DNA of 64,000 bases from Gemmatimonadetes bacterium 2013_60CM_65_52 (GTDB taxonomy: Bacteria; Gemmatimonadota; Gemmatimonadetes; Gemmatimonadales; Gemmatimonadaceae), in contig NGFI01000006.1 of the NCBI GenBank assembly GCA_002215645.1, forward strand, positions 1 through 64,000, given 5' to 3'. Made by a program: the position numbers and the translations under genes. Below are positions 60,404 to 64,000 of this stretch, one piece after another; position 1 is the stretch's first letter; the number at the start of each line of letters is the position of its first letter. A model generated the notes under the pieces. It had not been told where the DNA came from. It saw only the letters and a list, made by a program, of their open reading frames with translations, and searched no databases.

Positions 60404-60928
60404 TTACTGCACCGTGATGGACCCTTTCATGTTCATTGCCGCGTGTGGCGTGCAGATGAAGTTGTACGTGCCTGCCGGCACCTTTGCGAACGAGACGACG
60501 TAGGGTTCGTTCGGCTGCATCAGCATCGGGCTGGCAAGCTCGCCCATCTTGGCGCCAGGCATGTTGGCATCGAGCTGTGCCTTCGCCGCCGCATCGGTGA
60601 CGTTCTGGAACGTGACGTTGTGTGGGCCGCCCGACACGTTGATGAACTTGACTGCATCGCCTGACTTTATGGTGAGCGAGGCCGGGTCGAACTTATAGCC
60701 GGACGCGTCGCCGATCATTTTGACTTCGTGCGTGGCACCCGTGGCCGGAGCCGCTGCCGCCGCGCTGGCCGCAGGCGTGGTGGCCGCAGGTGCCGGTGTC
60801 GCTGCCGGGGTGGTCGCACTCGGAGCGGCCGCGTTGGCCGCGGCGCTGTCCGTGGCGGCCTTTTTCTCGCCGCCACATGCGCCGAGGACCGCCGCGCTCG
60901 CCAGGAGCGCAATACCGTGGAACCGCAT
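60404..60928 (-). CDS. Plastocyanin-like copper lipoprotein
   Basis: A 174-residue lipoprotein (signal ending AAVLGAC) with an alanine/proline/threonine-rich tether (about 25-75) and a cupredoxin domain (about 78-174). Type 1 copper ligands are visible: histidine in GGPHNVTF, cysteine and histidine in FICTPHAAM, and a methionine in MNM. It probably carries electrons at the outer face of the cell membrane or to an oxidase. GGAGG precedes ATG 60928. Confidence 0.9.
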   Translation of the reverse strand: MRFHGIALLASAAVLGACGGEKKAATDSAAANAAAPSATTPAATPAPAATTPAASAAAAAPATGATHEVKMIGDASGYKFDPASLTIKSGDAVKFINVSGGPHNVTFQNVTDAAAKAQLDANMPGAKMGELASPMLMQPNEPYVVSFAKVPAGTYNFICTPHAAMNMKGSITVQ

Positions 60929-61076: not shown

Positions 61077-61106
61077 TTGACCCGGCCGCCGGGTTCCCGT
61101 TAGGTT
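61077..61106 (+). promoter_or_regulatory. his operon promoter
   Basis: TTGACC (61077-61082), 18-base spacer, TAGGTT (61101-61106). The expected start point falls at or next to the A of the leader-peptide ATG at 61113, six bases past the -10. Confidence 0.6.
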
Positions 61107-61112
61107 CACTCC

Positions 61113-61190
61113 ATGTCTGGATTGCGCCACCGCCACCTGCACCATCACTACGGCCCGTCGGGTCGGGGCGACGCACGCGTGGACGAGTAG
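61113..61190 (+). CDS. hisL: his operon leader peptide
   Basis: A 25-codon frame reading MSGLRHRHLHHHYGPSGRGD and five more residues to TAG. Five of the seven codons 6-12 are histidine (CAC/CAT), the control region where a ribosome stalls when histidyl-tRNA is scarce. It lies directly before two alternative RNA structures and a terminator ahead of hisG. It is unlike proteobacterial leaders, which carry longer His runs, and no ribosome site precedes the ATG, so it is probably translated from the very 5' end. Confidence 0.85.
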   Translation: MSGLRHRHLHHHYGPSGRGDARVDE

Positions 61191-61256
61191 GCGAAAAGCT
61201 TTCCTCAGACACCTGCCGCACCTTCGGCCCGTCGTCCTGACGGGCCGTTTTGTTTT
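61162..61256 (+). promoter_or_regulatory. Transcription attenuator of the his operon
   Basis: Terminator: CGGCCCGTC (61225-61233), five-base loop, GACGGGCCG (61239-61247), then TTTTGTTTT (61248-61256). Antiterminator: GTCGGGGCGACG (61162-61173, within the leader-peptide frame) can pair over 12 bases (two G-U) with CGTCGTCCTGAC (61230-61241), which takes part of both terminator arms. A ribosome finishing the leader would cover the upstream arm and let the terminator form; one stalled at the His codons would leave it free. A copy of CGGCCCGTC at 61151-61159 could also pair with the right terminator arm. Confidence 0.85.
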
Positions 61257-61290: not shown

Positions 61291-62154
61291 ATGCTTCGTA
61301 TCGCACTTCCCAACAAGGGTCGACTCTCCGAGGACGCCCGCGAGCTCTTCACGGACGCCGGGCTGGAGATTCGCGCCGCGGGCCCTCGCGCGTTGACGGC
61401 GTCGCTCGGCAGCGAATTTCAGGCGCTCTTCGTCCGCGCGCAGGACATTCCGGAGTTTGTGGCCGACGGAGCGGCGGATGCCGGTGTGACCGGATTCGAT
61501 TTGATCCGCGAGTCTGGTCGCGAGCTGGAGGAGTTGGCGGACCTCGAGTTCGGGCGATGTCGTCTCGCCGTGGCCGCACGCGAGGAGAGCGGCATGCGGA
61601 CGTTGGCAGACATGCCACCCGGAACCCGGATCGCTACGGTGTTTCCACGCATCACCAGGCAGTTCTTCGATCGCTGCGGGCTGCGGGTCGAGGTGGTTCC
61701 GGTATCGGGGGCAGCGGAGATCGCGCCACACATCGGGATCGCAGACGTCATCGTGGATCTCGTCTCGACCGGATCCACGTTGCGTGTGAACGGTCTGCTG
61801 GAGCTGACGACCGTGCTCGAATCGAGCAGCCGGCTCGTGACGACAGCAGCGGTGCGTGCCGATTCACGGAAGGCGAAGGCGCTCGAAGAGCTCGTCGGCG
61901 CGCTGGGAAGTGTCCTGGCTGCCCGCGGCAAGCGCTATGTGATGGCCAACGTCCCGCGCAACACGCTCGAGGCTGTGCGCCGCGTCGTTCCTGGTCTCAA
62001 TGGACCAACGGTCATCGACATCATGAACGGCGGCGATCATGTCGCCGTGCACGCGGTTGTGTCCGCGGCCACGATTTACCGGACGATCGCCGATCTCAAG
62101 GCGCTGGGGGCACAGGGAATTCTCGTCACCCGAATCGAGAGGCTGATGGCATGA
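61291..62154 (+). CDS. hisG: ATP phosphoribosyltransferase, long form
   Basis: First step of histidine synthesis, ATP plus PRPP. The 287-residue protein has LRIALPNKGRLSEDARELF, the pentose-phosphate-binding VDLVSTGSTLRVNGL and a C-terminal ACT-like regulatory domain (from about 210, with VPGLNGPTVIDI) that senses histidine. This long form needs no HisZ. Spacing from the attenuator is 34 bases and no clear ribosome site is seen. The stop overlaps hisD (ATGA). Confidence 0.95.
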   Translation: MLRIALPNKGRLSEDARELFTDAGLEIRAAGPRALTASLGSEFQALFVRAQDIPEFVADGAADAGVTGFDLIRESGRELEELADLEFGRCRLAVAAREESGMRTLADMPPGTRIATVFPRITRQFFDRCGLRVEVVPVSGAAEIAPHIGIADVIVDLVSTGSTLRVNGLLELTTVLESSSRLVTTAAVRADSRKAKALEELVGALGSVLAARGKRYVMANVPRNTLEAVRRVVPGLNGPTVIDIMNGGDHVAVHAVVSAATIYRTIADLKALGAQGILVTRIERLMA

Positions 62155-63476
62155 CCGCGCGCGCGAAGACGTCCGTACTCCGTACGTTCGGTGCCTGCGA
62201 GGAATTGTCGTCGATGCAGCGTCGTACGTTGTTCGAGCGAGGCACCTCGAACGACGCCGTCATTCGGGAGCGAACGCGGCAGATCCTCGGAAAGGTTCGG
62301 AGCGGTGGAGACGACGCGCTGCGCACGATGGCGCTTGCGTACGACGGCGTGACGTTGTCGTCGCTCGAGGTGCCGCGCAGCGAGTGCGATGCCGCTCTCG
62401 AGGGACTCGACACCGGACTGCGGCGGGTAATGGAGCGCAGTGCCGCCAACATTCGACGGGTTCATGAGGCGTTTCGGCCCGATCTCCAGGAGGTTGAGAC
62501 GGAGCCCGGGATCCTCGTGGGTCGGCGGCCTGACCCGTTAGGGCGCGTGGGGGTCTACGCGCCCGGAGGCCGTGCGTCCTATCCGAGCAGTGTGCTCATG
62601 GGCGCTATTCCCGCACGCGTGGCCGGTGTCGCGCAGGTGATCCTGTGCTCGCCACCACAACGGGAATCCGGCCGGCCGGCCGATGTCGTGCTCGCGGCGG
62701 CGGCGCTGGCGGAAGTGGATCGTGTGTTTTCGGTCGGCGGGGCGGGCGCCATCGGGGCGATGGCACATGGCACCACGACGATTCCGCGTGTCGATCGGAT
62801 CGTCGGACCTGGCAATGCGTATGTGGCTGAAGCAAAGATTCAGGTCTCGAGCATGGTGGGCATCGATTCGCCCGCTGGCCCCAGCGAGCTGCTCGTGCTC
62901 GCCGATGACTCGTCCAACGCAGACGTCATTGCTCGCGAGCTGTTGGCGCAGGCGGAGCACGACCCACTCGCTGCAGGGGTCGCCGTCACGTCCACTCGCG
63001 CTCATGCGCTCGAAATTCAGCAGGAAATAGAGCGACTTTTACCGCTGCAGCCTCGACGGGACATCAGCGGTGCCGCGCTCGAGGGCCGGGGAGCGGTGTT
63101 GTGGTCAGAGTCGCTGGATGCTCGCATCGAGTTCGCGAACATGTACGCTCCGGAACATCTCCTACTGCTGGGGGAGACGACGGACGTCGTACTCGCGCGG
63201 CTTCGCAATGCAGGCACGGTGTTCGTGGGCGAATTCGCATCGGTGGCCTTTGGCGACTACATGACCGGCGCCAATCACGTGCTCCCGACGGGCGGATTGG
63301 CGCGCGCGTATTCCGGGCTTTCGACGCTGGATTTCGTTCGCTGGACAACCTATCAACGAGTGACGCGGCGGGCAGCAGCGAGGATGTCGCTCGACGTCGC
63401 GGCCTTCGCAGAGGCGGAAGGCCTTGGCGGTCACGCTATGGCTGCGCGCGCATGGGCAGTGGAGAAGGTACCGTGA
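62151..63476 (+). CDS. hisD: Histidinol dehydrogenase
   Basis: Zinc enzyme oxidising histidinol to histidine in two NAD-dependent steps. The 441-residue protein shows VGVYAPGGRASYPSSVLMG, FSVGGAGAIGAMAHGT, VDRIVGPGNAYVAEAK, IDSPAGPSELLVLAD, AQAEHDPLA (catalytic Glu/His area) and DYMTGANHVLPTGGLAR. The ATG at 62151 overlaps hisG; its stop overlaps hisC. Confidence 0.96.
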   Translation: MTARAKTSVLRTFGACEELSSMQRRTLFERGTSNDAVIRERTRQILGKVRSGGDDALRTMALAYDGVTLSSLEVPRSECDAALEGLDTGLRRVMERSAANIRRVHEAFRPDLQEVETEPGILVGRRPDPLGRVGVYAPGGRASYPSSVLMGAIPARVAGVAQVILCSPPQRESGRPADVVLAAAALAEVDRVFSVGGAGAIGAMAHGTTTIPRVDRIVGPGNAYVAEAKIQVSSMVGIDSPAGPSELLVLADDSSNADVIARELLAQAEHDPLAAGVAVTSTRAHALEIQQEIERLLPLQPRRDISGAALEGRGAVLWSESLDARIEFANMYAPEHLLLLGETTDVVLARLRNAGTVFVGEFASVAFGDYMTGANHVLPTGGLARAYSGLSTLDFVRWTTYQRVTRRAAARMSLDVAAFAEAEGLGGHAMAARAWAVEKVP

Positions 63477-64000
63477 CCACGCGCGTCGAACTATCCGCAC
63501 TCGCGCGGCGCGGGATGGAATCGATTCCCGTGTATATCGGGGACGCCACGCCCTGCGCAGTGGACCTGAGTGACAACACGAACCTCTGGGGAGCGCCACC
63601 CGCTGTCTTGCGCGCCCTTCGTTCCGCGGATGTGTCCGTGGTGGCTCGCTACCCGGCGACATATGCCGGGTCACTGCGGGACGCGCTTCTCGAGCATGTC
63701 GGTCTTTCAGGTGCCGACGGCATCGATGTCGTGACAGGTTGTGGTTCCGACGACGTACTGGATTCGGCAATGCGGGCCTTTGCCCAGCCCGGCGAGTGCA
63801 TCGCGTTCTCGTCGCCCACGTTTTCGATGATTCCCACGTTTGCGCAGCTGAACGGACTCACGCCCACGCCTGTGCCCTTTGCACCAGGCTTCGAGCTGGA
63901 TGCAGAGCGTCTCGTGGACGTACGCGCCAAGCTCACTTACGTCTGCGCGCCCAACAATCCGACGGGAACACACGTGGCTCGTTCCGCGATCGATTATATC
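63473..64000 (+). CDS. hisC: Histidinol-phosphate aminotransferase (C-terminus beyond window)
   Basis: PLP aminotransferase of fold type I. The first 176 codons are in the window. Seen: LSDNTNLWGAPPAVLRAL, RYPATYAGSLRDALLEH, VVTGCGSDDVLDSAMRAF (usual GNGSDE here GCGSDD), SSPTFSMIPTFAQLNG and YVCAPNNPTGTHV. The PLP lysine is outside the window. GGAGAAGG precedes the GTG, which overlaps the hisD stop. Confidence 0.92.
   Translation, partial: MTTRVELSALARRGMESIPVYIGDATPCAVDLSDNTNLWGAPPAVLRALRSADVSVVARYPATYAGSLRDALLEHVGLSGADGIDVVTGCGSDDVLDSAMRAFAQPGECIAFSSPTFSMIPTFAQLNGLTPTPVPFAPGFELDAERLVDVRAKLTYVCAPNNPTGTHVARSAIDYI

Follow-up and report, generated by a model that had tools for sequence, protein, structure and literature searches.

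The window, a stretch of 64,000 nucleotides from Gemmatimonadetes bacterium 2013_60CM_65_52, ends within a histidine biosynthesis operon. hisG and hisD are followed by a third gene that runs off the window; from its position and from reading its sequence it is probably hisC, the PF00155 match not being specific to hisC. A plastocyanin/azurin-type copper protein is encoded divergently from the operon (60404-60928, minus strand). The genes and the elements directly upstream of them are as follows.

61077-61082, plus strand: -35 box TTGACC (sequence reading)
61101-61106, plus strand: -10 box TAGGTT, ending 6 nt upstream of the leader ATG (sequence, relatives)
61113-61190, plus strand: leader peptide frame MSGLRHRHLHHHYGPSGRGDARVDE, predicted to be leaderless (sequence reading, counterparts in relatives)
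61128-61148, plus strand: codons for HRHLHHH, putatively regulatory, five of the seven being His (sequence reading, chance level from shuffles)
61291-62154, plus strand: hisG, ATP phosphoribosyltransferase, long form (TIGR00070)
62151-63476, plus strand: hisD, histidinol dehydrogenase (PF00815; start set by inspection)
63473-64000, plus strand: start of the probable hisC, running off the window (PF00155)

A first-pass annotation, made from the letters of the window, had described a 25-codon frame with five His codons in seven ahead of hisG. On rereading, we found this frame at 61113-61190, where 25 codons translate as MSGLRHRHLHHHYGPSGRGDARVDE before a stop codon and positions 61128-61148 read CAC CGC CAC CTG CAC CAT CAC. 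It is the single short frame in the 64-kb window (one stop, two possible starts) with at least five His within eight residues, and shuffled 64-kb sequences contain a mean of 0.05 such frames.

The promoter elements place the predicted 5′ end of the transcript close to the leader ATG. Of 97 non-redundant leaders with an ATG (Myxococcota excluded), 77 have a TANNNT motif that ends 5-11 nt upstream of it, and 11 of the 12 leaders displayed have a TTGAC-type hexamer 17-18 nt upstream of their -10 box. Transcription usually starts about 7 nt downstream of a -10 box, so the start is predicted at or within a few nucleotides of the ATG, in the window at 61113 or a few nucleotides away. A similar spacing, 7 ± 1 nt, was reported for his promoters of C. 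glutamicum (PMC3896937). An attenuator with a conventional 5′ UTR, started further upstream, would leave the attenuator itself intact and could account for the 20 of 97 leaders that have no TANNNT at 5-11 nt, the leader start being predicted rather than mapped. We consider this variant unlikely: over all leaders, the remainder of the 50 nt upstream of the ATG supplies only 7 further TANNNT hexamers, and a Shine-Dalgarno-like motif precedes the ATG in just 1 of 97. The position of the -10 box and the absent Shine-Dalgarno motifs instead predict a leader that is leaderless or nearly so, in agreement with its earlier description as "seemingly leaderless" and with TTGACC and TAGGTT in the window itself.

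From the His codons onward, the window leader can form several pairings, some of them overlapping, whose arms were assigned mainly from an alignment of 81 leaders (A1).

61134-61140, plus strand: P1 5′ arm, within the His codons, partner 61175-61181 (alignment)
61148-61156, plus strand: P2 5′ arm (S1), right after the His codons, partner 61160-61168 (alignment)
61150-61162, plus strand: arm of an additional helix whose partner is the terminator 3′ arm, 61236-61248 (energy, comparison over 81 leaders)
61157-61168, plus strand: S2, predicted antiterminator 5′ arm, within the leader frame (alignment, pairing)
61175-61181, plus strand: P1 3′ arm, immediately before the stop codon (alignment)
61222-61233, plus strand: S3, predicted antiterminator 3′ arm, overlapping the terminator 5′ arm (alignment, pairing)
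61225-61256, plus strand: predicted intrinsic terminator, stem 61225-61234 with 61238-61247, then a T-run (sequence, alignment, energy)

The GC-rich terminator and T-run noted at first pass were both confirmed: positions 61225-61247 give a 10-pair stem with a 3-nt loop (-19.1 kcal/mol), followed by TTTTGTTTT. In the window, 10 of 11 S2:S3 pairs form (one mismatch), as do all 8 pairs of P2 and 4 of the 6 pairs of the family helix P1. As a single sequence, the whole leader has unremarkable fold stability (z -1.15, not significant); the fold from 61149 gives z -2.35.

A 12-base alternative pairing that disrupts the terminator had also been proposed, without its arms; the best fit to it is 61150-61162 with 61236-61248 (13 pairs, -30.6 kcal/mol). 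This pairing is real and does engage a terminator arm, but its counterparts in the 81 leaders reach a median of 9 of 13 pairs, which rules it out as the general antiterminator; the pairing conserved in that role is instead the one between 61157-61168 and 61222-61233. In the ribosome-masking model described below, the window's own leader shows no terminator at equilibrium when the ribosome is early on the His codons, so the 13-pair helix may assist antitermination in this particular leader.

We then asked where else the element occurs. HisG was matched in 29 of 41 genomes (the source genome and relatives), and nearly all of its close relatives for which enough upstream sequence was present have a His-rich frame of ~17-30 codons, then a terminator, before hisG. 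Among 80 named relatives, the leader is found in Gemmatimonadota, in Myxococcota (Myxococcus, Corallococcus, Pyxidicoccus, Archangium, Hyalangium, and Citreicoccus), and in four Ca. Eisenbacteria genomes; the loci that lack it mostly have short upstream sequence. Many of the Myxococcota leaders (L037-L065, L072, L101, L102) apparently begin with GTG. In a sample of the phylum, HisG was matched in 181 of 249 genomes, and we read 80 of the regions upstream of hisG. These regions carry the leader in families f1, f4, f8, and f9, in most of f5, and in part of f7 and f2; none was seen in f6, f10, or most f2 genomes. Several leader-less loci (L020-L022, L028) have coding sequence directly 5′ of hisG.

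A covariance model of the leader (R1), whose training alignment included part of the leaders it matched, returned 73 matches at E<1e-7 over 200 genomes, 71 of them directly upstream of a listed HisG. The two others lie in G154, which has no listed HisG place, and in G115, where a second His leader (L191, G115:C210:21812-21942) sits directly before a hisC-type aminotransferase, ~9 kb from the hisG leader. Myxococcota and Eisenbacteria were sampled as single genomes, and six of the former and four of the latter gave exactly one match apiece, as did one Roseisolibacter genome; R1 should be usable for annotating the his leader element. In the HisG tree, a poorly resolved comb, the Myxococcota rows fall together in a single clade (100/100) amid Gemmatimonadota rows, which suggests that leader and hisG may have been transferred together between phyla; the resolution of the tree is too poor to give the transfer a direction. 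The same clade includes one record labelled Comamonas (L059, titled Comamonas sp. KCTC 72670); it falls within Myxococcus, has a Myxococcus-type leader, and is probably mislabelled.

The first-pass annotation had proposed looking for the His codons and paired arms upstream of related hisG genes; both are kept, the arms with compensatory changes over the 81 leaders. RNAalifold on the free leader recovered two helices, P1 between the His codons and the segment leading up to the stop codon, and P2 immediately downstream of the His codons; when the His region was removed, it recovered the antiterminator S2:S3. For P1, P2, and the terminator together, 88.8% of cells are paired, compared with 35-45% when the arms are slid, and for the antiterminator the figures are 86.6% and 35-51%. 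In shuffles that ignore relatedness, applied to a structure derived from the same 81-leader alignment, the first set has 95 cells changed on both sides versus 30.9 after shuffling, and the antiterminator a covariation of 0.164 versus 0.133; in neither case did any of 500 shuffles score as high. Both-side changes occur at all 6 pairs of P1 and at 5 of 8 pairs of P2. As examples of compensation, GGCGGGCC pairs with GGCCCGCC in L014, the commonest form being GACGGGYC with GGCCCGTC, and GACAGGTC pairs with GGCCTGTC in L130. A test with swapped arms (mean z -1.9; z below -2 in 43% of leaders) often found a leader's own arms no better than foreign ones; this test is weak and uninformative because S3 is nearly invariant and GC-rich. 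Structure that overlaps a coding frame could also stem in part from codon constraints.

The placement of S2 follows the His codons. In most leaders it starts 4-11 nt past the final His codon of the core, and in 87% of 113 leaders the distance is 2-12 nt. In the sister leaders L095 and L096, a one-base deletion after the His codons converts the peptide GPTGRGEVARVRMTA to GPRAAARSHVSG and S2 is kept; S2 occurs in other reading frames also in L010, L036, and L012. Judged from these alignments, what is maintained after the His codons is the RNA arm rather than the peptide. These frame shifts (L095/L096, L010, L036) bear on a second explanation, in which the His-rich frame encodes an unrelated small protein, such as a metal-binding peptide, and the terminator ends transcription prematurely and constitutively, with no coupling between the two. 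His-rich peptides can bind metal, and the divergent neighbour does encode a copper protein. We nevertheless regard an uncoupled terminator and peptide as very improbable: not only does the frame shift while the arm stays, but P1 and the antiterminator covary, and versions of the element with codons for other amino acids precede genes of the matching pathways.

A different sensor could in principle be at work: a T-box, a riboswitch, or a protein-binding leader would then regulate the operon and the His codons would be secondary. Leaders of all these kinds share a terminator and alternative structures. No Rfam family reached its gathering threshold in the window. Models for RF00514 (His_leader) and T-boxes had no match in the window at threshold or in 12 related loci at E<=1, where only unrelated sub-threshold matches appeared, none of them a sensor of these kinds. 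The arms are moreover placed relative to the His codons, and we give this explanation the least credence of all, slightly below that of the uncoupled terminator and peptide.

By sequence model, then, the window leader lies outside RF00514. It shares with the his attenuator of E. coli and Salmonella (hisL, RF00514) a His-codon leader, alternative hairpins, and a terminator before the first his gene, and differs from it in having no Rfam match, in its predicted leaderlessness, in sequence, and in the phyla that carry it. Unlike the seven consecutive His codons of hisL (PMC3896937), the His run here is usually interrupted by Ala, Val, or other codons. Candidate his attenuators in Firmicutes (the B. 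cereus group, Peptostreptococcaceae and Lutispora, and Erysipelotrichales), as given in an extract of PMC9413887, likewise have three to five His codons, an attenuator, an antiterminator, and a terminator, and also lie outside RF00514. They belong to another phylum, the extract does not mention leaderlessness, and the likeness noted is one of layout. Leaderless leader peptides are known from Streptomyces lividans (PMC8079986) and from S. meliloti trpL (PMC7298713), where transcripts likewise start at the leader ATG and attenuation is ribosome-mediated. Those leaders have Leu, Trp, Ile, Thr, and Met codons and belong to other phyla, the S. lividans list contains no His leader, and their starts were mapped experimentally, whereas the start here is predicted only. 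Our literature search of open-access papers found no published his attenuator for Gemmatimonadota or Myxococcota.

We modelled ribosome masking in 88 leaders with equilibrium partition functions, computing how likely the antiterminator is in transcripts that do not yet include S4; the assumed footprint reaches from the first P-site base 14 nt in the 5′ direction and 16 nt in the 3′ direction. While the A site is still 8 to 3 codons short of the end of the His core, this probability is 0.95-0.97; once it has moved 2 to 8 codons past the core, the value falls to 0.00-0.08. It climbs back to about 0.35 with the ribosome at or near the stop codon and is 0.44 without a ribosome; hence, the off state is imperfectly explained. 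S2 is probably blocked by the ribosome itself, and P1 and P2 may hold it afterwards. In full-length equilibrium folds, the terminator usually dominates (0.84-0.88) even when the ribosome covers the His codons, so the mechanism would require the antiterminator to form first.

The conserved His frame, the terminator, and the compensatory arms support what the first reading had proposed, and we hold with high confidence that the element controls the hisGDC operon by ribosome-mediated transcription attenuation, presumably in response to histidine. Transcription would begin at or next to the leader ATG, and, as the promoter position suggests, the ribosome would probably load at the transcript 5′ end with no Shine-Dalgarno site. 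When histidine is scarce, the ribosome would stall on the His codons and occupy the 5′ arm of P1, leaving S2 (61157-61168) exposed to pair with S3 (61222-61233) once S3 is made; S2:S3 would block the terminator, and hisGDC would be transcribed. When histidine is plentiful, the ribosome would advance over S2 itself, and after its departure S2 could be kept in P1/P2. With S2 unavailable, S3 would pair with S4 and transcription would end. Ribosome timing, termination, and the histidine response in this scheme are modelled on the E. coli his paradigm. Such an attenuator would extend translation-timed control of histidine synthesis, on strong comparative support, to Gemmatimonadota, myxobacteria, and Ca. 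Eisenbacteria; it suggests that attenuation of this kind is workable on mRNAs that start at the start codon and would imply transcription-translation coupling in little-studied bacteria.

Weaker R1 matches, some of them chance, include Tyr-codon leaders before phenylalanine 4-monooxygenase genes and, ahead of ilvD, a possible site that lacks a clear leader frame. Two further matches, leaders of the same layout, lie in the source genome, outside the window: a Phe/Tyr leader, MSPRPAFFTYFFSYGYRTPGRGWRRARD, before a DAHP synthase (L204, G000:C3:394043-394188) and a Leu/Ile leader before leuA (L203, G000:C10:57458-57590). No Trp-rich leader was seen before the single trpE match of that genome, and a trp attenuator there was dropped as a candidate. 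Searching 59 family genomes for the terminator pattern GGCCCGTG..CACGGGCC, we found 14 terminators, 13 of them preceded by a Tyr- or Phe-rich frame. The readable genes after them are DAHP synthase, phenylalanine hydroxylase, and tyrA-like genes, tyrA being assigned by reading and not by a model. Under a strict filter that misses some cases, 14 of the 30 DAHP synthases surveyed and 5 of the 27 phenylalanine hydroxylases have a Tyr/Phe leader and a terminator upstream. One leaderless scaffold may serve several amino acids in Gemmatimonadota, with His, Tyr, Phe/Tyr, or Leu/Ile codons swapped in before a shared antiterminator arm (often coding TGRG) and terminator, as a multi-pathway regulon in which phenylalanine hydroxylase and tyrA would be under the control of Tyr codons; to us, the chances for and against this broader proposal are evenly balanced. 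The Tyr, Phe, and Leu versions offer a way to ask how attenuators switch specificity. For a Tyr-rich leader before phenylalanine 4-monooxygenase, our literature search found no published case. This arrangement, with a terminator, is seen at L193, L194, L195, L197, L207, L217, L220, and L263, and at L216 a Tyr-rich leader and terminator precede a tyrA-like gene.
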